Of a stretch of DNA of 63,586 nt, positions 1,085 through 27,274 are shown piece after piece. Below the pieces are notes generated by a model that was given only the letters and a program-made list of their open reading frames with translations, was not told the DNA's origin and made no database searches. Origin of the DNA: Halanaerobiaceae bacterium (GTDB lineage: Bacteria; Bacillota; Halanaerobiia; Halanaerobiales; Halarsenatibacteraceae); contig PWDW01000166.1 of NCBI GenBank assembly GCA_003553225.1, forward strand, positions 1-63,586, in the 5' to 3' direction. The translations under genes were made by a program, and so were the position numbers. Within the stretch, counting starts at the first letter, position 1, and every line of letters starts with the position of its first letter.

Positions 1085-3205
1085 GTGGTGGATAAGAACA
1101 AATTTTTATTTGTGTTTTTAATTTTATTTATCTTTTGTTCACCGTTTCTGAGGGCCGCAGAACAGCCCTATCCCAGTTATATATATGATTTCTGGGGAGA
1201 AACGATAAGTGCCCCTGTACCTTATCTCTATGAATTTGATATTGATTTTGAAAAAAAAGGTATAGGTAGTTTATCCCGGCCCGGTGATATTTTTGTTACT
1301 GAGGAACAGGAAATATTGATTTCCGATACAGGGAATAATCGTATTATTTATCTTGATGAAAATCTCAATAAGAAATATATTTTTGAGGAATATACAGCTG
1401 ATGAAAACAGTTATAGTTTTAGGAGCCCTGAAGGAATATATGTGGTCAACGATAATTTATATATAGCAGATTCAGGAAACCGCAGGATCGTTCAGTTAAC
1501 TATGGAAGGGGAATTTGTGCGAACAATAACCCGTCCGGAAACTGATATGGCTCCGGATATTAACTTTATACCGCGTGATGTTGCAGTTACTTCCTTCGGC
1601 CGGATATATGTAATATCTGAAGGTGATTATGAGGGTCTTCTGGAATTTTATAGAGATGGTTCTTTCAGTGGTTTTATTGGTGCTCCGGAGGTAACCCCCT
1701 CCCCGGCTGATATTTTTTGGAGACGTTTTGCAACCGAGGAACAGAGGAGAAGAGTTGCCCTGTTTTTACCTACAGAATATAATACGGTGACCATTGATGA
1801 AACAGGACTGGTAATGGCAGCTACCGGAAATGAAATAAGAAGATTAAGCCCTGATGGAACTAATGTGATTCGGGAAAGAGGATTTTCGCCCCCGATTGGT
1901 GATGTTGCTGCCGGGGACCGGGAAAATGTTCGGGCCTCATCATTTGTAGATGTTATATCCCGGGAAAATGGCCGTTACAGTCTTCTGGATCGGGTTCGAG
2001 GCCGAATTTTCACCTATGATCGGGATGGGCATTTGCTTTATGTTTTTGGAGGGCTGGGCAATAACCACCACTTATTTCAAAATCCAGCAGCAATTGATAT
2101 CTGGCAGAATAAATTTGTTGTTCTGGACCGTTCTCTGGCCCGGGTGATGATTTTTAGGCCTCTGGAATACACCAGAAATATATATCAGGGTGATGATCTT
2201 TTTGCTTCTGGCAGATATGAACAGGCAGCAGAAAAATGGCACCGGGTGCTGGACAGAAACAGCAATTTTTTCGTGGCTTATTCCCGGCTGGGCAGGATAG
2301 CACTCAATAGAGATGATTATGAAGAAGCCCTGGAAAAATTCAGGCTGGGCTATGACCAGCGGGGCTATTCACAGGCTTTTATGCAGTTTAGAAGAGGAGT
2401 TATACTTGATAATTTCAGTACGATAATTTCATTATTTTTATCAATTATTGTTGTTCTTTATTTACTGATAAAATTTGATCTGCTCAATAAGCTGCTTAAT
2501 ACAGCCGGGCTCTATAAATATTTTTCCGGGGATACAGAAACTGCTGATCGAAAAGAATACGGGTTAAAAAATGTGATACAGAGAGTACTGTCCGGTTTAA
2601 AATATGCCCTGCACCTTATTTTTCACCCTTTTGGTGGTTTCTGGGATTTGAAAAATGAAGGCCTGGGTAATCTGCCCTCTGCAGTCATCTTATTATTTCT
2701 TTCCTGCTATATCTATATTTTTATGCGCCAGTATACTGGGTTTTTATTCAATCCGGTGGATGTCTCACAGATAAATATTCTGGTTGATGTTTTGAGTATA
2801 CTGCTGCCCTTTGTGCTGTGGTCTGTAGTAAACTGGTCATTAACCACTTTAATGGATGGTAAAGGTACTTTCAAGGATATTGTCATCTATTCATCTTATT
2901 CATTGGCTCCTTTTATTATAATAAATTTTCCACTGGCAATCATAAGCAATTATATGACTTTAGACGAAGGTGCTTTTTATTACTTTATTCTGGTCTTTTC
3001 AATATTATGGTCATTAAGCCTGCTGTTTTTCGGAACGGTTGTAACTCATGACTACAGTGTTTCAAAATCCCTGGGAACAGTTATTGCTATTTTAATAGGG
3101 ATTGGGACCGTTCTCTTTATTGCTCTGCTGTTTTTTAGTGTGATTAATCTGATGGTAGGTTATTTTACCACAATTTATCAGGAATTGATAATCAGGGTGT
3201 ATTAA
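1085..3205 (+). CDS. NHL-repeat, TPR and Yip1-domain membrane protein (cassette 1)
   Basis: The 706-residue protein begins with a signal peptide or anchor (about residues 6-25). An extracytoplasmic beta-propeller of NHL repeats follows (for example SDTGNNRIIYLDEN and ADSGNRRIVQL, about residues 60-360). Next comes a TPR pair (about 370-430), a membrane helix (about 443-463) and a C-terminal Yip1-like block of about five hydrophobic segments (about 505-700). NHL propellers and TPRs bind ligands or proteins, so a sensor or scaffold for the adjacent importer is the natural inference, but no catalytic motif is visible. The GTG at 1085 follows AAGGGGG; a second GTG directly after it is an alternative start. 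A paralogue with the same architecture lies at 22331-24565, again first in the cassette. Confidence 0.7.
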   Translation: MVDKNKFLFVFLILFIFCSPFLRAAEQPYPSYIYDFWGETISAPVPYLYEFDIDFEKKGIGSLSRPGDIFVTEEQEILISDTGNNRIIYLDENLNKKYIFEEYTADENSYSFRSPEGIYVVNDNLYIADSGNRRIVQLTMEGEFVRTITRPETDMAPDINFIPRDVAVTSFGRIYVISEGDYEGLLEFYRDGSFSGFIGAPEVTPSPADIFWRRFATEEQRRRVALFLPTEYNTVTIDETGLVMAATGNEIRRLSPDGTNVIRERGFSPPIGDVAAGDRENVRASSFVDVISRENGRYSLLDRVRGRIFTYDRDGHLLYVFGGLGNNHHLFQNPAAIDIWQNKFVVLDRSLARVMIFRPLEYTRNIYQGDDLFASGRYEQAAEKWHRVLDRNSNFFVAYSRLGRIALNRDDYEEALEKFRLGYDQRGYSQAFMQFRRGVILDNFSTIISLFLSIIVVLYLLIKFDLLNKLLNTAGLYKYFSGDTETADRKEYGLKNVIQRVLSGLKYALHLIFHPFGGFWDLKNEGLGNLPSAVILLFLSCYIYIFMRQYTGFLFNPVDVSQINILVDVLSILLPFVLWSVVNWSLTTLMDGKGTFKDIVIYSSYSLAPFIIINFPLAIISNYMTLDEGAFYYFILVFSILWSLSLLFFGTVVTHDYSVSKSLGTVIAILIGIGTVLFIALLFFSVINLMVGYFTTIYQELIIRVY

Positions 3206-3282
3206 GTTATACAATTCTCCTTAAAAAAATCAGTCCTGCACCCAGAACACAAATTCATCTTTATTATTTGATCTGTGGGTCT

Positions 3283-3318
3283 TTAATGATTCTATTAATG
3301 ATTTTATTAATGATTTTA
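3283..3318. repeat. Three tandem copies of a 12-bp unit
   Basis: TTAATGATTCTA is followed by two copies of TTAATGATTTTA, head to tail, in the 194-bp gap between the NHL-Yip1 and DUF5696-like genes. It may be simple slippage or a regulator-binding array. No such array is seen in the second cassette, where these genes nearly abut. Confidence 0.7.
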
Positions 3319-3399
3319 TTGTTTACTACTGGAGGGTGTTTTTTAATCGGGAGTGGGGTAAGAAGTTCAGGCAGGCTCTAAATCTGGAGGTTTATTCAT

Positions 3400-6300
3400 A
3401 TGATTAATATTAAAAATAAGTGGTATATATCTAAGAAATACTCAATTATATTAGTTTTGATTTTTACCTGTCTGTTTATTTTTTTCAGCTCCAGAATCCA
3501 GGCTGTCCCGGATGATTTTGCCATGATTTCTGAGAGCAGGCACCTGGCACTTTATCTTGAAGAAAGTACAGCTGAAATTGCCGTTAAAAATAAGGAGACC
3601 GGAAAAATATGGTTTTCTAATCCGGCCCGGGAAACCGGGGGCCGAGATTTAAGAGAAATTTTTTCAATAAGTTATAGAAATAGAGAAGGAAATGTCAGAA
3701 GAATGGACAGCTACAACCACAGTGTCAATTTTGATCAATTTGAAATAAAGCAGATAGCCGATGGAGTCAGAATTGAATTTGTGGTGGGGGATAAATATTC
3801 CGAGGTAGAGCATGTACTGCCCCAGCTGATTGAAAAAAGCAGGCTGGATCATTTCCTGGAACAGATTGAAGATGAAAATGATCGAGCAACCATCAGAAAT
3901 AATTATGTATTAATTTCTCTAGAAAAAAGGGAAGAAGAACGGCCTGAACCACTGAGCAGCTTTCAGAGAACAGTGCAGAGCGTATTTGGTGATTATCATT
4001 TAATTACCCGGACAGATGATTTTCAGGAATTACAAAAACAAATAGAAAGTCTGGAGGACAGACTGGCTGAAGCTAATCGTAGTTCTGGTGAAGAGCCCGA
4101 TGAAAAAATCAATGAGGAAAACAATAATGAGGTCCATGAAGAAAATAATGAGGAACCCAATGAAGAAAACAATCAGAATCCAGAAGAAACAGATGAAAAA
4201 GCAGCTATTCGGGAGGAGCTTTCTGTAAAAAAAGATCAGCTGGAAGAAAAAAGAAGGGAGTTTACCCGACACCTTTTTAATAAATTTGTGGGTGAAGTAG
4301 TGGGTGTGGGGGGGATGACAGAAGGTTACCGCCGTGATGTTGATGCTGCCGGAGATTTAGCCGCAGCCGATTTTGCCTATTTAAAAGAAAATGATGCCTA
4401 TATGCTTAAGTCCGGCATTGCTCCTTTTGTTAAAAACAATATGGAAGACATTTTGGGTGAAGCGGGTTATACTATTGATGATTTGAGTACAGATCACTTC
4501 CGTTATTTTCTTGATCCTCCGGTTCCGGGGATCCAGTTTTTTGAAATACCGCTGGAAATACGATTAAAGGAAAGAAGTATAGAAGTTAATATTCCCCGGC
4601 AGGATATAAGATATCCCCAGGAGATGCCGGAAGAATATAAAATAAATTTTAATGCCGAAAATTATGAGCAGGCCATAGTAGCCGATCCCGGAGCTCAAAA
4701 AACCACTTTACAGCTTTTGACGGTTAATATACTGGAAGGACTGGGAGCGGCCACCTTTAATGATCAGGGCTATTTTATGATTCCCGATGGTTCGGGAGCT
4801 TTAATCGAATTTTCTGAGTCCCAGAGCGCTGTTTCACCCTATAACCGGCCTGTTTTTGGACCGGACTATACGGTTCGAGAAATTCGCCGAACGGCCAGTG
4901 ACCTGCAGCAGATACATTTACCCGTTTTTGGGGTTAATAAAAATGGAGAAGGTCTGCTGGCAATTATTGAAGATGGTGCAGCTGCAGGTAGAATAAGAGC
5001 TGATATACCGGGCAGAACTCGGCCCTTTTACACTTTATTTTCCTCATTTGAAACAATACCTACTTTTACTTCTGATACCGGAGATGTTACTTTAAATTAT
5101 CATGCCCCTCGTTTATTTAATAATGATATAAGACTCAATTATGTTTTTTTGCGGCAGGATAAATCTGACTATACAGGAATGGCCCGCTATTATCAAAATT
5201 ATTTAAAAGATCAGGGGGTACTGCAAAAAACGGAGATCACCAGCATTCCGCTGTTTATGGATCTAATAGGTGCTGTGTCCCGCAGAGAAGCCAGTATGGG
5301 GATCATGCGTGATGTCTCCCGCCCGGTTACTCCCTTTGGGCAAACTTTAGAGATTATGGAAAAAATAAAGGCTGAGCAGATAGATAATGTCCACCTCAAA
5401 ATGAGTGGATTTTTAGAAGGGGGCCTGCATCATAAATATCCTTCCGGAATTAACCATGAATCTGCCCTGGGCAAAACAGAAGAGCTGGAAAAACTGGTGG
5501 CTCAGCTGAAACAGTGGAATTACAATTTTTATCCTCAGGTATATCTGCAGAATGTATATAATACTTCCCTGCTGGATGGGTTTTATTCCCGTTTACATTC
5601 TGCCCGTCGTTTGAACAGACAGCAGGCCCGGATAAATTATTATGATCGGGTGCTTTTTGAAAAAATTGAAGATGAATATTATTATCTGGCCGCTCCGGGG
5701 GGTCTAAAAAATAGAGCTGAGAGTTTTTATGATAGTTTTCAGGAATATGGAATAACAGGTTTAAATCCCGGTGATCTGGCCCGGTATCTTTATGCTGATT
5801 ACCGGGAAAGGGAAAAAAGATATGTGGACAGACAGCAGTCACAATTAATAATAACTGATACCCTTCATTCTTTGCAGGAGGAAAGGGGTTTGAATTTATT
5901 ACTGGAAGAAGCTAATTCATATACATTTGCTTTTACGGACACATTTATTAATATTCCTCAGCAAAGCAGCAATTATAGAATTTTTGATAGAGATATTCCT
6001 TTTATACAGATAGTGCTCCAGGGTTATGCCGAATACAGCGGATTTCCCATTAATTTAGCCCCGGATAATAGAGAAAGCCTTCTAAGGAATATTGAGACAG
6101 GGGGAGGACTCCATTTCCGGCTGATGGGTAAAGATTCTTCTTTTCTGAGGAAAACAAGATTTGATCATCTTTATGATGTAGATTACCAGAGCTGGTTAAA
6201 CTATATCAAGGAAACCTACCACAGGGTTAACGATGAACTGGGCCCGGCAGCAGGTCAGGCCATCGAAAAACATGAAAAACTTCAGGAAGATGTGGTTATG

Positions 6301-6417
6301 ACTGTTTTTGAAGAGGGCACCATTATTATCGTAAATTACAGTGAAGAAGCTGTTCAAAAAAGGGGTCACAAAATAGGTGGTCAGGACTTTATTGTTCTGG
6401 ATGGTGGGGAGGATTAA
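3400..6417 (+). CDS. Large secreted DUF5696-like protein (cassette 1)
   Basis: The 1005-residue protein has a signal peptide or N-terminal anchor (about 13-35). A beta-rich region and a hydrophilic insert rich in Glu and Asn with heptad-like stretches (about 211-287) follow, then PDGSGALIE (about 463-471) and a long C-terminal region. It resembles the DUF5696 proteins that accompany carbohydrate ABC permeases and Yip1 proteins in Paenibacillus-like genomes; this family link is from memory and not verified. A beta-sandwich followed by a possible TIM-barrel-like part suggests a glycosidase or glycan-binding role, but no catalytic pair can be assigned. The ATG at 3400 follows TGGAGG. The stop is 4 bp before the next gene, implying translational coupling. 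The paralogue at 24581-27274 lacks most of the acidic insert. Confidence 0.6.
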   Translation: MINIKNKWYISKKYSIILVLIFTCLFIFFSSRIQAVPDDFAMISESRHLALYLEESTAEIAVKNKETGKIWFSNPARETGGRDLREIFSISYRNREGNVRRMDSYNHSVNFDQFEIKQIADGVRIEFVVGDKYSEVEHVLPQLIEKSRLDHFLEQIEDENDRATIRNNYVLISLEKREEERPEPLSSFQRTVQSVFGDYHLITRTDDFQELQKQIESLEDRLAEANRSSGEEPDEKINEENNNEVHEENNEEPNEENNQNPEETDEKAAIREELSVKKDQLEEKRREFTRHLFNKFVGEVVGVGGMTEGYRRDVDAAGDLAAADFAYLKENDAYMLKSGIAPFVKNNMEDILGEAGYTIDDLSTDHFRYFLDPPVPGIQFFEIPLEIRLKERSIEVNIPRQDIRYPQEMPEEYKINFNAENYEQAIVADPGAQKTTLQLLTVNILEGLGAATFNDQGYFMIPDGSGALIEFSESQSAVSPYNRPVFGPDYTVREIRRTASDLQQIHLPVFGVNKNGEGLLAIIEDGAAAGRIRADIPGRTRPFYTLFSSFETIPTFTSDTGDVTLNYHAPRLFNNDIRLNYVFLRQDKSDYTGMARYYQNYLKDQGVLQKTEITSIPLFMDLIGAVSRREASMGIMRDVSRPVTPFGQTLEIMEKIKAEQIDNVHLKMSGFLEGGLHHKYPSGINHESALGKTEELEKLVAQLKQWNYNFYPQVYLQNVYNTSLLDGFYSRLHSARRLNRQQARINYYDRVLFEKIEDEYYYLAAPGGLKNRAESFYDSFQEYGITGLNPGDLARYLYADYREREKRYVDRQQSQLIITDTLHSLQEERGLNLLLEEANSYTFAFTDTFINIPQQSSNYRIFDRDIPFIQIVLQGYAEYSGFPINLAPDNRESLLRNIETGGGLHFRLMGKDSSFLRKTRFDHLYDVDYQSWLNYIKETYHRVNDELGPAAGQAIEKHEKLQEDVVMTVFEEGTIIIVNYSEEAVQKRGHKIGGQDFIVLDGGED

Positions 6418-6420
6418 GAA

Positions 6421-7320
6421 ATGGATATCAAAAAAAGGATTTCACGATTATCACTGGATCAGCGAAAATCTGTTCTCGGGATTTTGTTTACAGCTCCCTT
6501 TACAGTTGGTTTTATCCTGTTTTTATTATATCCCATCATCCAGTCTGTCATTTTCAGCCTCAGTGATTTAAGTATAGTTGAAGGAGGATATGAAATTGAT
6601 TTCGTAGGATTAAGCAATTATTCGGAAGCACTTTTTATTGATTCTTATTTCCGGCGCATTTTTATAGATACTTTTATCAGGCTGCTTTTGGAGCTGCCGG
6701 CAATATTAATTTTTAGTTTTTTTGCTGCTATTTTATTAAATCAAAAATTCAGGGGGCGAATGCTGGCCCGGGTACTGTTCTTTTTACCGGTAATACTGGG
6801 AGCAGAAATAATTATTCGGCTGGGACAGGCCCATTATATGGAACAGGCCATGCAGCTGGGCCAGGGCGCTTTCTTTGACGTGGAGGCTATAGGGGAATTT
6901 TTGAATCAGCTGATGCTGCCTCCAGAACTCACTGAATATGTTCTGGCCGCTATTGATGATTTCCCGGAGATTGTCCGCTCTTCCGGGATTCAAATTTTAA
7001 TATTTCTGGCTGCCCTGCAGTCAATTCCCTCTGCTCTTTATGAAGTGGCCCATATAGAAGGTGCTACCGGATGGGAAACCTTCTGGAAAGTTACATTCCC
7101 CATGGTCAGCCCAATGATACTGGTTAACTTTATTTATACGGTTATTGATACATTTACGGCTCCCGATAATCAGCTCTTGACCTATATTCAAAATATAGCC
7201 TGGGGTAGTGGTGATTATGGGATTAGTGTGGCCATGTCCTGGTTTTATTTCCTGGCTATAGCAGTACTTTTAATTATAGTTTTTGTCAGTGTTTCTCGAT
7301 ATGTTTATTATGAAAGTTAG
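6421..7320 (+). CDS. Carbohydrate ABC transporter permease, MalF/UgpA type (cassette 1)
   Basis: This 299-residue protein has about six membrane segments and the EAA-type cytoplasmic loop near residues 205-230 (EGATGWETFWKVTFP), which docks the ATPase. It forms a heterodimeric channel with the next gene's product. It starts 4 bp after the DUF5696-like gene and ends 12 bp before permease 2, so it is part of one operon. A periplasmic segment between the second and third conserved helices (about residues 135-185, containing AHYMEQAMQLGQGAFFDVEA) is longer than in minimal MalF-type permeases and is present in the paralogue too. It may contact the binding protein or the DUF5696-like protein (inference). 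No ATPase gene is nearby. Confidence 0.9.
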   Translation: MDIKKRISRLSLDQRKSVLGILFTAPFTVGFILFLLYPIIQSVIFSLSDLSIVEGGYEIDFVGLSNYSEALFIDSYFRRIFIDTFIRLLLELPAILIFSFFAAILLNQKFRGRMLARVLFFLPVILGAEIIIRLGQAHYMEQAMQLGQGAFFDVEAIGEFLNQLMLPPELTEYVLAAIDDFPEIVRSSGIQILIFLAALQSIPSALYEVAHIEGATGWETFWKVTFPMVSPMILVNFIYTVIDTFTAPDNQLLTYIQNIAWGSGDYGISVAMSWFYFLAIAVLLIIVFVSVSRYVYYES

Positions 7321-14596: not shown

Positions 14597-16996
14597 ATGC
14601 TGAGCAGACGGACCGGGAACTATATGGTCTGCTTTATTGCATTTTTATTTGTTTTTTATGTTTTTATATCTGCATTATTTGGAGCCGGGGTAAAGGCCGA
14701 TGAAGTGCTGGATTTTACTGTACTGCATACCAATGATGAGCATTCAGCCCTGGTTCCTCATTCTCCTGCTGTTGATTATCATCCGGAGAAAAACGATCCG
14801 ACAGTGGGTGGTCTGGCCCGTCTGGCGGGAGCAGTTAATTCAATCAGGTCTAAAAAAGAGGAGGGCAAGGAACCAGTTGTTCTGCTGTCGGCCGGTGATT
14901 TTTTAGGAGGAACTCCTTTTGCCTGGCTGAACTACAGGAATGAAGCCCCTGAATTGAGTATTTTCCAGGAGATAGGTTATGATGCTGTTACTATCGGCAA
15001 TCATGAATTTGATTACGGTACTGAAGGTCTATTGAGGTATTTACAGGCAGCAGGGTATCCCGAAAAACAGGATCAATTACCCCTGGTAACCTCCAATATA
15101 ATACCACATGAAGACCATAAATTGAATGATATGGGTTTCCAGAAAACTATGATTAAAGAGCTGGAAAATGGCTTAAAACTTGGGCTTTTTGGTCTAATAG
15201 GTGAAAATGCTGTTGAAGTTACACCCCGGTCTGAAGGGGTTAGTTTTACCGACCAGACAGAAACTGCCAGAAGAAAAGTTAATCAGCTGCAAAAAAAAGG
15301 GGCTGAAATTATTATATTGATCTCCCATTCCGGACTCCAGGAAGAGCAGGAGCTGGCCTCACGGGTGGAAGGAATTGATCTAATCATTGGGGGACACAGT
15401 CACGATACAATTGAGCAGCCCCGGAGGGAAGGAGATACTATTCTGGTTCAGGCGGGATCTTCCCTGGAATTTCTGGGTTTTTTAGAGCTCAGCTATGATC
15501 GTAAACGGGAAGTACTTAAAACCAGAAATACTGATAATCATAACCCTTTTCTGGTCCGGCTGGATGACAGTATAACTCCTGATCCGGTAATAAAGAAAAT
15601 GACTGCAGATTATACAGAACAATTAAACAGCTTTATAGCTGAGATGACCGGGGGCCAGATCACGGATGTTTTTGAACCACTTGCTCATTCTTCTTTTTCG
15701 ATTACCAATCGAGCTCCATTACTGGAATCTCCTCTGGGTAATTTGATTACCGATGCTATGAGACTCATAACCGAAAAGGAGCTTGATGAGGAGGTTGATT
15801 TTGCTTTCCAGGCCTCAAATTTGATACGGGGTCATGTTTATCCCGGGAGTACAGAGTGGGGCCGGGATAAAATCTCGTTCTATGACCTTGTTCTGGTGGC
15901 CAGTATTGGGGCCGGATATGATGATTATCCCGGGTTTCCTCTGGCTTCTTTTTATATAACCGGGGAAGAACTGCGGCGGGTGCTGGAGATATCAGCCCTG
16001 CTGCCTGAATATATAGGCTCTAGTTACTTTTTTCATGTATCAGGTCTGCGCTACAAATTTCATCCCGGACGTACGGTTCTTTTTAATATCCCGATGATTG
16101 ATTTTCCGATTCCTTCTATGCGTTCGGTTATTGATGCCGAACAATATACAGGCCAGGGAATACAAACTGGAGAAGAGGAATATGAAGAACTGCCTCTGCG
16201 TGAAGAGGAGCTTTATCATGTGGTTAGTGGTTATTATCTCCTTTATTTTGTACCACTCCTGGGTGATATTTATTCTCCACTGGAGATCAAGATCAGAGAT
16301 GAAGAGGGTAATCCGGTTGACAGCCTGGAGGACACAATTATTGAAAAAAATGACCGTGAGCTTAAATTATGGGAGGTGCTTGCAGAATATACAGCAAATA
16401 TAAATGAGTATGAAAATACTAATGAAAATAACCCGGCTCAGGTACCGGAATATTATTCTACCACTCAGGGTCGGGCTGAAAAAGAGATAAAGGCTTATGA
16501 AATTGTCGGTGGTTTTTCTGCTTCATATTTTAATAATCAGCTGCAGCCAATTGATTTAGAAGCAGATATAATCCTGGAGAATAGTTATGGATTTTATGCC
16601 GGCCTAAGACATGAATTGCTGCATCGTATAAGTGTTCAGGCTTTTTATGAAAGATCGGGAAAAAACAGTCAGGATTATAGATTTAGCCTTCAGGGCCTGG
16701 TCGGTACAGCTGTTCTGGATTTGATCCAGAGAAAAGGATCTAATTTTTACCTTAAGGGAGGTATAGGTTATTATACGGGAGAGTATTATGATTTCGACCA
16801 AAAAGAGGAGTATTCCATTTCCCATACTCCGGGTATAAAGCTGGGCCTGGGGGTAAAAGATGAACCGGGTATTTTCAGCTTGACCGGGGATATCTTTTAC
16901 CGGTATTTAAAACCTGAATTTATCGGTGAAGATAAATCCGGTACTGTGGATCTGTCCGGAATCATAATTCAGGGAGGATTGGAATATACTTTTTAA
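14597..16996 (+). CDS. Secreted 5'-nucleotidase/metallophosphatase with C-terminal beta-barrel
   Basis: The 799-residue protein has a signal peptide (about 1-34) and then the UshA-type two-metal phosphatase. Its motifs are in order: HTNDEH (about 44), SAGDFLGG (about 97), GNHEFDYG (about 134), SHSG (about 242) and GGHSHD (about 264). A 5'-nucleotidase C-terminal substrate-binding domain follows (about 350-570). The last 160 or so residues alternate polar and aromatic positions in paired strands and end in YTF. An outer-membrane beta-barrel with a terminal Phe for BAM-type insertion is the likely reading. UshA-type enzymes are normally about 500-600 residues, so this tail is extra. The start at 14597 follows AAGGAGG. 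It would release nucleosides and phosphate at the outer membrane. Confidence 0.82.
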   Translation: MLSRRTGNYMVCFIAFLFVFYVFISALFGAGVKADEVLDFTVLHTNDEHSALVPHSPAVDYHPEKNDPTVGGLARLAGAVNSIRSKKEEGKEPVVLLSAGDFLGGTPFAWLNYRNEAPELSIFQEIGYDAVTIGNHEFDYGTEGLLRYLQAAGYPEKQDQLPLVTSNIIPHEDHKLNDMGFQKTMIKELENGLKLGLFGLIGENAVEVTPRSEGVSFTDQTETARRKVNQLQKKGAEIIILISHSGLQEEQELASRVEGIDLIIGGHSHDTIEQPRREGDTILVQAGSSLEFLGFLELSYDRKREVLKTRNTDNHNPFLVRLDDSITPDPVIKKMTADYTEQLNSFIAEMTGGQITDVFEPLAHSSFSITNRAPLLESPLGNLITDAMRLITEKELDEEVDFAFQASNLIRGHVYPGSTEWGRDKISFYDLVLVASIGAGYDDYPGFPLASFYITGEELRRVLEISALLPEYIGSSYFFHVSGLRYKFHPGRTVLFNIPMIDFPIPSMRSVIDAEQYTGQGIQTGEEEYEELPLREEELYHVVSGYYLLYFVPLLGDIYSPLEIKIRDEEGNPVDSLEDTIIEKNDRELKLWEVLAEYTANINEYENTNENNPAQVPEYYSTTQGRAEKEIKAYEIVGGFSASYFNNQLQPIDLEADIILENSYGFYAGLRHELLHRISVQAFYERSGKNSQDYRFSLQGLVGTAVLDLIQRKGSNFYLKGGIGYYTGEYYDFDQKEEYSISHTPGIKLGLGVKDEPGIFSLTGDIFYRYLKPEFIGEDKSGTVDLSGIIIQGGLEYTF

Positions 16997-17083
16997 AGTA
17001 AAAAATGTAATATATATTGAATTAAGTTCAGTTTTATGTTAATTTATATTCATAATATTTTTATTAAGAAAGGAGGATTACAG

Positions 17084-17548
17084 GTGCAGGAGATAATTGC
17101 GATACTTCTTATAATCTTGCTGCTGGGTTTTGGTTTTGCGGGCAGTTTTAGAGTTGATTTTGTTAATCTAATAGAAGATGCAGAAGAAGTCGAAGAGAGG
17201 ATTGAGGGAAATCAAAGATACAGCCTGCAAAAGGAAGGACGAGAAGATATATCCCGTACCTTTCGGGCTATTACCGGATCTTCAGAAGTAAATCTGACCA
17301 CGGATAGAGGTAATATTTTTGTGCTTTTTAAAGACAGAATATCTGGTAATGCGGGTGTGAATATAAAGTCACGGAGAGGGGATATCACCCTGAAATTTGA
17401 GGAGAATATCTCGGGAGCAGCCCGGGTTAATATTCAATCTGATACAGGAGATATATTGTTTTTAAATCGAGAATCAGAAATAAGAAATTTTATAAATGAT
17501 GGTAAAATCAACGTCAGCACCGGGGGTAATATTAACTATAGGCCATAA
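17084..17548 (+). CDS. Small single-pass protein with DUF4097-like repeats
   Basis: I start at GTG 17084, seven bases after AGGAGG; an upstream ATG at 17036 has no ribosome-binding site. The 154-residue product has one N-terminal membrane helix (about 3-20). Three repeats of about 25-30 residues follow, of the form VNLTTDRGNIFVLF, VNIKSRRGDITLKF, VNIQSDTGDILFL. They resemble the beta-helical DUF4097 putative adhesin repeats. It would sit on the outer face of the inner membrane or in the periplasm. The preceding gene encodes the nucleotidase-barrel protein and the following one an MreB paralogue, so an envelope role is the only contextual hint. Confidence 0.5.
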   Translation: MQEIIAILLIILLLGFGFAGSFRVDFVNLIEDAEEVEERIEGNQRYSLQKEGREDISRTFRAITGSSEVNLTTDRGNIFVLFKDRISGNAGVNIKSRRGDITLKFEENISGAARVNIQSDTGDILFLNRESEIRNFINDGKINVSTGGNINYRP

Positions 17549-17849
17549 GATTTACACTGACTTTTAATTTTTTAAAAAATAGCAAAAAAATTATTAAATG
17601 GGTTTTGAAATTGTAGTTGAATAAAAAATGCAGGGAAACAGGTATTATATGTTGAATTATATTATTAGAGGTAGTTTATTTGAAAAAAGTTTTTTTGCAT
17701 AAATTATTTTAGGCAGGGCGTCAGGCCTGTAAAAGATTTTTTCGAATAGATGCAGGATTAATAATTTATTTTATTTACATGAATCATCAAAAATCATCAA
17801 TAATCATGAATAATTTTGACTATAATAATATTTAGTGAGGGATGGGTAT

Positions 17850-22330: not shown

Positions 22331-24565
22331 TTGAATTTTTCTTTTTATTCAAAATTGAAATATAAAAATCCATCAGCTGCTATATTAATTTTGTTAGTGC
22401 TTATTTTATTTTTTTTAATTTTTAATAATAATGCTGGTGCAGTGACTTATGAAAGTTATAGTTATAATTTTTGGGGTGAAGTCATATCCAGCCCCCATGC
22501 TTTTATTCCTTACAAAGTACTTGGAGGAGATGATCTGGGGATAGAAGTTTTTGATAGACCGGAAGATATTCATACTGATGAAAATAATCAAATATATGTA
22601 GTGGACAGACGTAATGATAGAATAATTCATATTGGGGAAGATTATCAGCTGGTGCGGGAGATAAATGAATTTTATCATGATGAAAAAGGAAAACAGGATA
22701 CCTTTGATAACCCTACTGGAATCGCAGTGGATGTCAATAATGATATTTATGTAGCCGATCGTGGTAATAATAGGGTAGTTCATCTGAGAGAAGATGAGAC
22801 TTTGAAACAGGAAATTATATTGACTGATGAAGATGAAATGATCCGCGAGGGATTCAATTTTAGACCATTAAAACTGGATGTTGATCATACTGGAAGGATT
22901 TTTGTAATTAGTGAGGGTGAATATGAAGGTCTGCTTCTCTTTTCACAGGAGGGGGCATTTGAAGGTTTTATAGGGGCTCCTTCAGTTACTCCTGATCTTT
23001 TTGATTATTTCTGGAGAAATATTGTTGCTACTGAGGCTCAAAGGGATAGAATGGCACTCCATATTCCAATTCAGTTCAATAACTTACATGTTGATTCTTC
23101 TGGATTTATCTTTGCAGTAGCTTCAGGAGGAACTGGATATGTGGCCCAGGAAGAACTTATCAGGAGATTAAATCCCGGTGGAGAGGATGTTTTAAGAAGG
23201 GAAGGTTTTCATGCTCCTATTGGTGAGGTAGAATATACCAGGGTTCAGGTGGGAGCCATATTTGTTGGGATTGGAGCATCTAGATTCATAGATATTACCC
23301 ATAGGGATGATGTTGATATTTATAGTGCCATGGATAGAAGAAGAGGGCGGATTTATACTTACGACAATCAGGGTCGTCTGCTGTACACTTTTGGCGGTCA
23401 GGGGGATAACAAAGGAGTTTTTAGAGAGCCGATAGCCCTGGAGTATTTGAATGATGGCCGCATGGTGGTTCTGGATAATCGGACAGGATTATTAACATTT
23501 TTTAGGGAGACTAACTATGCCCAAAATTTTCATCAGGCTATGAATTTGTATAATGATGGCCGTTATGATAATTCATATAATATGTGGAAACAGACATTAA
23601 GAAAAAATATAAATCATCCTTTGATTCATACCTATTTGGGATTATCATTATACAGAATGGAAGAGTATAATGAAGCACTAACCCATTTTCGTTTAGGCCA
23701 GGATAGAAATAATTATTCCCGTGCTTTTGAATATCATCGCAGAGAGATTATTAGAGAGAATTTTGATCTAATAATATATATTTTATTGTTTTTTACAGTA
23801 GTTTCAGTAGTGGTATACAAATTCAGAGTTCTGGATAAAATTTCCCGTAAAGTTGTGGCAGTAACTGCAGAAACAACAGCAGATATAACTGAAGATAACT
23901 TATCGGAACAAAAGTCGGTTAAAAAAATCAAATATTTTTTAATAAAAACATTTAATGGTTTGAAATATGGTGGACATGTAATATTTCATCCTTTTGATGG
24001 TTTCTGGAGTCTAAAACATGAACGAAAGGGTAATCTGCTTTCTTCTCTGGTAATTTTAATAATATTTTTACTTAGTTATTTGCATCACAGAATTTATTCA
24101 GGTTTTTTGTTTAACGAACTCAACCTGGCAACTATTAATATATTCAACGAGATAATAAGTGTGTTAATTCCTTTAATGTTGTGGGTGATTGTCAACTGGG
24201 CTTTAAGCACTCTCCTGGATGGGAAAGGAACTCTTCTGGATATTTTTAATGCAGTAAGTTACTCATTAGTTCCTTTTATATTGGTTAATATACCCCTAAC
24301 AATCATTAGTGAATTTTTATTGCTGGAAGAGGCAAGTTTTTATTACTTTTTTGCAGTATTATCAGTTTTTTGGTGTTTTGGTCTAATATTTTTTGGTTTG
24401 TTAGTTATTCATGATTATACACTAAGCAAAAATATATTTTTAACAATCTTTACAATAATCGGAATGGCTTCGTCAGTATTTATTGGTTTATTATTTTACA
24501 GTGTTATAGAATTGATGTTTACTTTTGTACATGAAATTTATGTTGAAGTTGTTTATAGATATTAG
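22331..24565 (+). CDS. NHL-repeat, TPR and Yip1-domain membrane protein (cassette 2)
   Basis: The TTG at 22331 follows AGGAGG with 9 bp spacing. The 744-residue protein is a full-length paralogue of the product at 1085-3205. It has an N-terminal membrane segment (about 15-35), the conserved YNFWGEVISSP opening, NHL propeller repeats (VDRRNDRIIHI, ADRGNNRVVHL), a TPR pair (about 395-465), a single helix (about 478-498) and a five-segment Yip1-like region (about 545-740). The linker between the single helix and Yip1 is longer and Thr/Glu-rich. It is the first gene of an operon under an operator-controlled promoter. A sensor or scaffold role for sugar uptake is inferred. Confidence 0.7.
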   Translation: MNFSFYSKLKYKNPSAAILILLVLILFFLIFNNNAGAVTYESYSYNFWGEVISSPHAFIPYKVLGGDDLGIEVFDRPEDIHTDENNQIYVVDRRNDRIIHIGEDYQLVREINEFYHDEKGKQDTFDNPTGIAVDVNNDIYVADRGNNRVVHLREDETLKQEIILTDEDEMIREGFNFRPLKLDVDHTGRIFVISEGEYEGLLLFSQEGAFEGFIGAPSVTPDLFDYFWRNIVATEAQRDRMALHIPIQFNNLHVDSSGFIFAVASGGTGYVAQEELIRRLNPGGEDVLRREGFHAPIGEVEYTRVQVGAIFVGIGASRFIDITHRDDVDIYSAMDRRRGRIYTYDNQGRLLYTFGGQGDNKGVFREPIALEYLNDGRMVVLDNRTGLLTFFRETNYAQNFHQAMNLYNDGRYDNSYNMWKQTLRKNINHPLIHTYLGLSLYRMEEYNEALTHFRLGQDRNNYSRAFEYHRREIIRENFDLIIYILLFFTVVSVVVYKFRVLDKISRKVVAVTAETTADITEDNLSEQKSVKKIKYFLIKTFNGLKYGGHVIFHPFDGFWSLKHERKGNLLSSLVILIIFLLSYLHHRIYSGFLFNELNLATINIFNEIISVLIPLMLWVIVNWALSTLLDGKGTLLDIFNAVSYSLVPFILVNIPLTIISEFLLLEEASFYYFFAVLSVFWCFGLIFFGLLVIHDYTLSKNIFLTIFTIIGMASSVFIGLLFYSVIELMFTFVHEIYVEVVYRY

Positions 24566-24580
24566 GGAGTGAAAGATAAA

Positions 24581-27274
24581 ATGAAGAAATTAGTTTTGAT
24601 CCTGATAATATTTTCTGCTCTGTTTATACCAGAACTATCAAGAGCAGATTTATCACAGATGGAATTAAAAACAGAAAATTCTTATCTGAAATTATACATG
24701 AACAATGAAACAACAGAACTGGCAGTCCAGGAAAAAAGAAGCGAAAATATCTGGTATTCAAATCCCCAGGATTTAGATGAAATGGAGGAAATAGCTTCTG
24801 GAAATCGCAGGGAAGCTATGGAATCACAGCTCGAAATTCAAATTTTCAATCCCGCCTCTTCATATCGGAACACAAATTCCCATAGTATAGAGTATAATCA
24901 GTATGATATTAAACCAATAAATGATGGTGTTCAGGTTGATTATATTATAGGTGCCCAATGGAAAGATGATGATTATTTGCCCGATTTGTTAAGTGAGGAA
25001 GTTTTTGAAAATGCTTTTCTAGAAGGACTGGCTGAAGATGAGCATGATACTTTTCTGGATAATTATGAACTAATTACATTATATGAAAAAGAAGATACTG
25101 ATAAAGAGGAAGAATTTAGTGTCTCAGGGGTGAATGAAGAAGATGTATTTGGAAATTACCGGGTAAGAATATTTGATGAATCATTAACCTCTCATGATAA
25201 AGAAGAAATTATCTATGATTTTTTACAGACAGTGGTTGGTTATATTGAAGATATGGAGAGTGTAAATGATTTGACTCCTGATAGATTATCAGTATTTGAA
25301 AATGAAAATATTTATGTAAAACAGGATATCCTGGGGTTTGTGGAAGATGATTTGATCGATCTTTCCCGCAATATGGGGAATGAACCATCACAATTCACAG
25401 AAATGTTTCAAAATTATATGCTGGACCCACCAGCAGAGGCTGTAGACATATATCATGTTTCGGTACAATATATTATTGATGGTAAAGATTTTAAAGTTAG
25501 AATACCTGCGGAAAAGATTCAGTATCCGGAAAATTTAGAAGACGAAGAAAGAGACTATTTTCCTTTGAGCAGAATTAATGTATTACCTTTTTTTGGAGCA
25601 GCAAATAAAAATGAAGAGGGTTTTATATTTGTCCCTGATGGAAGTGGAGCATTAATTGAATTAAATAATGATAGGTTATATGCCCAGGCTTATCGAAAGC
25701 GTATTTTTGGCTGGGATAATGCAAATTTTAGGAGGACAATGAGAAATCATCCGGAGAAAATTCATCTACCAGTTTATGGATTGAAAAATAGTGATGGGGC
25801 ATTTTTGGCCATAATTGAAGAAGGGCAGGCACTGGCTCGAATTTATGCTGATATAGCAGGAAGAACTAATTCCTATAATACTGTGTATCCTGAATTTACA
25901 CTGCGTAATTATACTACAATGGATCTGGGAGATCATGTGGATGGAAGCAGAATGCATGTGTTTCAGAGAGAACAATATGTTGGGGACCTGCAAATTCGTT
26001 ATAGTTTTATTTCAGGAAAAGATACAGGTTATGCAGAGATGGCCAATTATTATCAGGAATATCTTAAAGAGAAATATGATCTCACAAAGATCGATGAATC
26101 AACCGGAAGCTCTCTATATTTAGAACTTGTGGGAGCTATTTCCAGGGTGGAACAGGTGTATGGTATACCCCGGGAGACAGCAGTTCCTCTAACCAGCTAT
26201 CAACAGGGAGAAAAAATCATTCAACATCTGTTAGATGAGAATATTACAAATTTAAAGGTCCGCTACCTGGGGTGGTTAAAAGGAGGAAAAGAACATTATT
26301 ATCCTGAACAAGCTATTTTAGAAAAAGAACTGGGCAATTCTGAACAGATGGCTTATTTTAGTAAATTTTTGGCTGATAATAATATACCTTTTTACCCTCA
26401 TGTAGATTTTTTACATGTACATCAAAGCAGAATTCTGGATGGCTTTAGTGTTAGACAGGATAGTTCTCGGACTCTAGATCGAAGAACTGCCCGAAAATAT
26501 GATTATCATCCGGGAACATTTGCTCTTATTAATGATAAATTTTCATATGTTTTATCCCCCTCCAGACTAAACTCTGTGATAACCGGTTTTTTGAATAATT
26601 GGGGAAATCCAGCAGCAAATGCTCTTTCTGTTGATTTAGGTTCCTATATTAATTCTGATAACAGGCTTGATGTTGATAGATTTATGAATCGTCAGCAATC
26701 CCTGAAGATTATAGAAGGGGAGTTAAACAGAATTTCCACTGAACATAATATGGATTTAATGGTGGAAGAAGCCCATTCTCCAGCTTTAGGTGTGTCAGAA
26801 AATATATTATATACACCTCCCACTTCTACAGAGTATAATATAATCGATCGAAGTGTTCCCTTTTATCAGATCGCTCTTTCTGGATATTACAATTATACTC
26901 TGGAACCTATCAACCTGGCTGTAGAATATGATGAAAATATTTTGCGAACTTTAGAAACAGGAGCTTCCCTGCATTATAAGATTTTTTATGAAGATAATTC
27001 TGAGGTTATAGAAACAGATTTTGATCATCTTTACTCGGCTAATTTTGCTGATTGGGCATCCGATATAAAAGAAAATCATAAAAATTTAAGTCCTGTACTT
27101 AACAAAATAAATAACCAGAAGATAATAGATCATAGACGTTTAAAGGAAAATGTTTTTCAAACAAATTATGAAAATGGCTATAAAATCATAGTAAATTATA
27201 ATCAAAATGAAGTAAAAATTGAAGGAGATGTAATAGAAGGATCTGATTTTCTGTTGAGAAAGGATGATCATTGA
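24581..27274 (+). CDS. Large secreted DUF5696-like protein (cassette 2)
   Basis: I choose ATG 24581 because TAGGGAG precedes it and a signal peptide follows at once (about 1-23); a GTG at 24569 lacks a site. The 897-residue product parallels the 1005-residue one of cassette 1. Shared blocks include PDGSGALIEL (about 351), IHLPVYGLKNSDGAFLAIIE and the C-terminal DFDHLYSANFADW region. The Glu/Asn-rich insert of cassette 1 is nearly absent, explaining the size difference. Architecture (beta domain then possible barrel) hints at a glycan-acting or glycan-binding protein; no catalytic pair is identified. Its TGA overlaps the ATG of the next gene by one base. Confidence 0.6.
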   Translation: MKKLVLILIIFSALFIPELSRADLSQMELKTENSYLKLYMNNETTELAVQEKRSENIWYSNPQDLDEMEEIASGNRREAMESQLEIQIFNPASSYRNTNSHSIEYNQYDIKPINDGVQVDYIIGAQWKDDDYLPDLLSEEVFENAFLEGLAEDEHDTFLDNYELITLYEKEDTDKEEEFSVSGVNEEDVFGNYRVRIFDESLTSHDKEEIIYDFLQTVVGYIEDMESVNDLTPDRLSVFENENIYVKQDILGFVEDDLIDLSRNMGNEPSQFTEMFQNYMLDPPAEAVDIYHVSVQYIIDGKDFKVRIPAEKIQYPENLEDEERDYFPLSRINVLPFFGAANKNEEGFIFVPDGSGALIELNNDRLYAQAYRKRIFGWDNANFRRTMRNHPEKIHLPVYGLKNSDGAFLAIIEEGQALARIYADIAGRTNSYNTVYPEFTLRNYTTMDLGDHVDGSRMHVFQREQYVGDLQIRYSFISGKDTGYAEMANYYQEYLKEKYDLTKIDESTGSSLYLELVGAISRVEQVYGIPRETAVPLTSYQQGEKIIQHLLDENITNLKVRYLGWLKGGKEHYYPEQAILEKELGNSEQMAYFSKFLADNNIPFYPHVDFLHVHQSRILDGFSVRQDSSRTLDRRTARKYDYHPGTFALINDKFSYVLSPSRLNSVITGFLNNWGNPAANALSVDLGSYINSDNRLDVDRFMNRQQSLKIIEGELNRISTEHNMDLMVEEAHSPALGVSENILYTPPTSTEYNIIDRSVPFYQIALSGYYNYTLEPINLAVEYDENILRTLETGASLHYKIFYEDNSEVIETDFDHLYSANFADWASDIKENHKNLSPVLNKINNQKIIDHRRLKENVFQTNYENGYKIIVNYNQNEVKIEGDVIEGSDFLLRKDDH

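Follow-up and report, generated by a model that had tools for sequence, protein, structure and literature searches.

How does a 5′-nucleotidase come to end in what resembles an outer-membrane beta-barrel, and on which side of that membrane would its enzyme then stand? The question is raised by a 799-aa protein encoded in a 63,586-nucleotide stretch of a Halanaerobiaceae draft genome (contig PWDW01000166.1; the whole stretch is called the window here). Bacillota are mostly single-membrane bacteria, and the Halanaerobiales have two membranes. A reading made from the letters of the window alone (the sequence-only reading) had proposed an UshA-type nucleotidase fused to an outer-membrane barrel, a fusion now borne out by Pfam domains, barrel homology and the AlphaFold2 fold.

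An enzyme and a barrel in one reading frame

The protein is encoded by a single open frame with an ATG at 14597, preceded by a ribosome-binding site (AAGGAGG) that is a good match. Its features are as follows.

14597..16996, + strand: complete open frame, the stop codon ending at 16996
14597..14698, + strand: Sec signal peptide, aa 1-34, with an RR n-region, a long hydrophobic core and a VKA/DE cleavage site, read by eye
14717..15403, + strand: Metallophos (calcineurin-like) catalytic domain, aa 41-269, Pfam PF00149, metal and catalytic motifs intact
15713..16240, + strand: 5_nucleotid_C substrate-binding domain, aa 373-548, Pfam PF02872
16391..16495, + strand: linker, aa 599-633, from the alignment with relatives, containing the motif PEYYSTTQGR that ends at R626
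16496..16993, + strand: predicted eight-stranded outer-membrane beta-barrel, aa 634-799, ending in Phe, from homology, AlphaFold2 and Foldseek against the PDB

In the Pfam scan, Metallophos (E 1.3e-10, 42.4 bits, curated cut-off 21.5) and 5_nucleotid_C (E 3.9e-12, 47 bits, curated cut-off 23.6) follow each other in the UshA-type (type I) order, and no SLH domain was matched anywhere in the protein. The metal-binding and catalytic residues D47, H49, D101, N135, H136, H244, H267 and H269 show no variation when the protein is aligned with 18 relatives; from these intact residues the enzyme half is predicted to be an active UshA-type nucleotidase. Two features would fit a different fate, in which the barrel is a mere carrier whose enzyme is released by cleavage into the periplasm or the medium, or in which the enzyme is dead and the protein a structural outer-membrane protein: a flexible acidic stretch (NINEYENTNENN) lies just before the barrel, and in the alignment N408 stands where relatives keep a conserved glycine. 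However, the core catalytic residues are all kept and inspection by eye revealed no known cleavage motif, and we regard both versions as very improbable beside an active enzyme that stays attached to its barrel.

The score of the enzyme half stayed below every NCBIfam equivalog cut-off tested (NadN, UshA, CpdB, SoxB and others; the best was NadN, at 111 bits versus 436), so its exact substrate cannot be named. Deducing the substrate from neighbouring genes gave no lead. A LacI regulator lies upstream; downstream, 40 bp past the nucleotidase gene, a 170-aa protein with a weak DUF4097 (toastrack) match is encoded at 17036-17548 of the window, and a MreB/Mbl gene then follows at 17835; these genes might be co-transcribed. 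Further out, a similar cassette flanks the region on both sides (window 1085-7320 and 22331-27274), each copy an NHL/Yip1 protein followed by a DUF5696 protein, with a sugar-transporter permease after the first copy.

The C-terminal domain comprises 166 residues, from about aa 634 to F799, so that the tail recognised in the sequence-only reading does end at Phe799 but starts at about residue 634 and not at 640. An AlphaFold2 model of the tail has eight antiparallel strands closing a barrel (634-646, 663-673, 678-690, 694-712, 715-732, 737-755, 760-771 and 786-798; mean pLDDT 85.7, pTM 0.79) and no helix, and is not the globular non-barrel C-terminus that the sequence-only reading had weighed against a barrel. 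The input was five aligned sequences, four of them mutually close: the tail and four relatives, soda-lake Halanaerobiaceae drafts found by scanning the named genome collection with a narrower barrel alignment. A full-length single-sequence model of the 799-aa protein was useless (pLDDT 32) and was set aside. The best folds for the barrel model in a Foldseek search of the PDB were Ail, OmpA, NspA and OmpW, at probability 1.00, with TM-scores of 0.70-0.78 for NspA and 0.72-0.75 for OmpW.

Homology points the same way. As a single-sequence query, the tail finds homologues among the small outer-membrane proteins of sister genera, at E 1e-9 to 4e-4, and it reaches E 1e-60 with a family profile that was built with the tail included. 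Two relatives match it in the C-terminal half of a 331-aa protein; in two others the matching proteins are 184-194 aa long, stand alone and carry a signal peptide. Pfam OMP_b-brl is matched by 11 of the 13 aligned family members (best E 1.7e-9), and the tail of the 799-aa protein alone matched no family in the Pfam scan, OMP_b-brl included. Against the PDB the family profile gave weak matches, among them NspA, OmpX and Opa (E 0.08-0.4), which are suggestive only. The protein ends in ...GGLEYTF, and a terminal F, the aromatic C-terminus for BAM recognition, is found in 12/13 aligned members. As for the alternating-strand character noted earlier, hydropathy alternation on the eight modelled strands was not significant versus shuffles (594/5000), so the barrel claim rests on homology and fold and not on alternation. 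On those two grounds the prediction that the C-terminal domain is a real eight-stranded outer-membrane barrel holds. Barrel fold and C-terminal Phe are common to the protein and to OMP_b-brl, OmpA, OmpX, OmpW, NspA and Ail; however, these small eight-stranded proteins stand alone or, as in OmpA, carry a periplasmic domain after the barrel, whereas here a large enzyme precedes it.

An exchange of membrane anchors

Relatives of the enzyme were sought in close relatives, in the whole class (59 genomes) and in 398 genomes spread over the phylum. Many were found across these sets, and none aligned to the 799-aa protein past aa 638. Among the 39 complete relatives, none has a barrel at the C-terminus and 38 have a C-terminal transmembrane helix. 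Of these 39, a first set of 37 distinct relatives includes 36 (all but L083) with a strongly hydrophobic helix, in most cases with a basic tail behind it; the remaining two, from another family of the class, are helix-ended as well. The earlier view that such enzymes are usually free or cell-wall anchored is thus incomplete. In the alignment, R626 is the final residue common to the 799-aa protein and its relatives before the relatives' anchor starts, and the helix begins right after its equivalent, the place at which the barrel domain starts in the 799-aa protein. The membrane-tailed UshA-type nucleotidases of Bacillota, such as the protein's own paralogue (G000:C109), share its signal peptide, Metallophos and 5_nucleotid_C domains and are 37-50% identical to it over aa 10-630, but where it has a barrel they finish with a single transmembrane helix and a basic tail.

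Nearly all relatives in the enzyme tree are of the helix type, which indicates that the barrel-ended form is derived. The 799-aa protein itself lacks a resolved position in this tree. Its helix-type paralogue groups with relatives from the order (99/97 support), apart from the 799-aa protein, and a recent duplication of this paralogue was rejected as the source on that ground. As read from these alignments, the anchor was swapped, from an inner-membrane helix to an outer-membrane barrel, at a clean domain boundary. What is new is this exchange of one membrane anchor for another. In the origin we propose, the local family of small outer-membrane proteins would have supplied the barrel to a helix-anchored nucleotidase that lost its helix, and the enzyme would have left the inner membrane for the outer one, remaining periplasmic throughout.

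The fusion was found in one genome only, with no second species among the genomes searched. Since that genome is a draft of 269 contigs with 3.4% contamination, two unrelated genes might have been joined in frame by the assembly. The junction itself speaks against such an artefact: the 501 bp around it are unique in the genome and free of a long repeat (the best second match, 57 bp at 75% identity, lies in the paralogue), it is in frame and falls exactly at the domain boundary, GC3 is alike on its two sides (0.37 and 0.34) and to that of the neighbours, and the barrel half occurs nowhere else in the source genome. We consider an artefact very improbable and take the gene to be a genuine fusion. 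Plasmid records gave 291 weak matches, all of which covered less than 80% of the query, and searches of the open-access literature yielded no case of a nucleotidase joined to an outer-membrane barrel. Other UshA-type enzymes are also fixed outside the cytoplasm, namely the LPXTG-anchored AdsA and Nt5e and a Vibrio lipoprotein 5′-nucleotidase, but they are anchored by a sortase signal (AdsA, Nt5e) or a lipid (Vibrio) and not by a barrel (PMC8475336). The same review leaves barrels unmentioned and notes how little attachment in Gram-negatives has been studied (PMC8475336).

The outer membrane and the side on which the enzyme stands

The sequence-only reading had also taken the protein as support for an outer membrane. 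Omp85/BamA (E 5.6e-50) and LpxC (E 2.5e-91) both occur in the source genome, and these genes support the presence of one. That reading had further suggested searching for the tail in other Halanaerobiales, and a profile search found the barrel family in 29 of the 38 genomes of the order and in 43/59 of the class, mostly as proteins of 180-290 aa. In the phylum sample of 398 genomes it occurs in 11, all with LpxC, and is absent from all 313 genomes without LpxC; within this sample the family thus appears confined to cells with LPS. Homologues with the tail in monoderm bacteria, which the sequence-only reading would have counted against its proposal, did not turn up in those 313 genomes. The enzyme family is distributed differently: 28 of the 31 other phylum-sample genomes that carry it are without LpxC, which makes it mainly a family of cells without LPS. 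The absence of LpxC hints at a single membrane and is no proof of one. Two stand-alone barrel homologues (L044 and L047, in G026 and G037) contain one in-frame stop each and are possibly decaying copies. In three sister genomes a second small outer-membrane-like protein, ending in FHYRF, is encoded upstream of stand-alone barrel genes (region L035:352-850, L036 and L037).

An eight-stranded barrel, being even-stranded, has both ends on one side, which is periplasmic by the established rules for outer-membrane proteins. With the enzyme N-terminal to the barrel, this would place it in the periplasm. The barrel-family alignment agrees with this side: differences in length are concentrated in L1-L4, the connections that would form the outer loops, whereas T1 and T3 hardly change and T2 varies somewhat. 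There are precedents for a periplasmic part N-terminal to a C-terminal outer-membrane barrel in OmpM (PMC5007114, PMC10628300) and MOSP (PMC5643300). OmpM, likewise from diderm Firmicutes (PMC5007114, PMC10628300), is a trimeric 16-strand porin whose SLH stalk binds peptidoglycan, whereas the 799-aa protein has eight strands and an enzyme and no SLH match.

The enzyme could instead be displayed at the surface, with the barrel acting as a small autotransporter and the linker lying in the barrel or passing via a BAM-barrel hybrid. The order of passenger then barrel is that of classical autotransporters, and enzymes such as EstA share it; about 35 residues separate the last conserved enzyme helix from strand 1, and Pfam Autotransporter is matched by 3/13 barrel-family members. 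However, known autotransporters have 12 strands where eight are modelled here, and their barrel is not simply replaceable by other barrels (PMC3297439). Enzymes such as EstA likewise have a 12-strand barrel and a surface location. The eight-strand OmpA barrel has a pore that cannot accommodate a polypeptide (PMC7553776), the modelled domain is without the linker helix that type Va autotransporters hold in the lumen, and the family consists mostly of stand-alone proteins, which counts against an autotransporter role. Surface display thus seems very unlikely; of the surface or outer-membrane tether first suggested, the outer-membrane tether is well supported and the surface location is not.

We consider it probable, with good confidence, that the protein is an exported UshA-type nucleotidase whose C-terminal eight-stranded barrel fixes it to the periplasmic face of the outer membrane, and we infer its location, topology, substrate and benefit from sequence and model. 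The protein would be exported by Sec and its signal peptide cleaved; the barrel, with its terminal Phe, would be delivered to the BAM machinery and inserted in the outer membrane, and the enzyme half would fold in the periplasm. Tethered there, it may remove phosphate from entering nucleotides or related phosphoesters.

The barrel as a possible re-used anchor

The same barrel family stands C-terminal to other domains in relatives, as follows.

L021:5671-6660 and L022 (G003 and G005, sister genus): DUF302 and barrel, 331 aa
L123:1333-2457, - strand (G435): ankyrin repeats and barrel
L120:4057-7698, - strand (G432): FIVAR repeats and barrel, >1200 aa, the N-terminus cut by the contig end
L121:941-2485 and L122:853-2397, - strand (G332 and G438): carboxypeptidase-regulatory-like domain, scoring below the Pfam cut-off, and barrel

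With several unrelated N-terminal partners, the barrel looks like a re-used outer-membrane anchor; of the barrel-fused proteins seen, the 799-aa protein alone is clearly an enzyme. It is an even question whether the small barrel serves Halanaerobiia generally as a C-terminal anchor in the outer membrane, coupled on repeated occasions to N-terminal parts that are unrelated, so that a single domain exchange would carry periplasmic proteins over from the inner membrane to the outer one. The nucleotidase itself illustrates how a membrane-fixed enzyme, common to relatives without LPS genes, can be adapted to a second membrane when its anchor is exchanged. It offers a concrete, testable case of relocation from the inner to the outer membrane, and points to an exchangeable small-barrel anchor in a group with little-studied outer-membrane proteins. 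Beside the carboxypeptidase-regulatory-like barrel proteins lies a gene (L121:2504-3757 and L122:2456-3718, both - strand) whose product, read by eye, in both genomes resembles a TIR domain combined with a zinc-ribbon and Sel1-type repeats.
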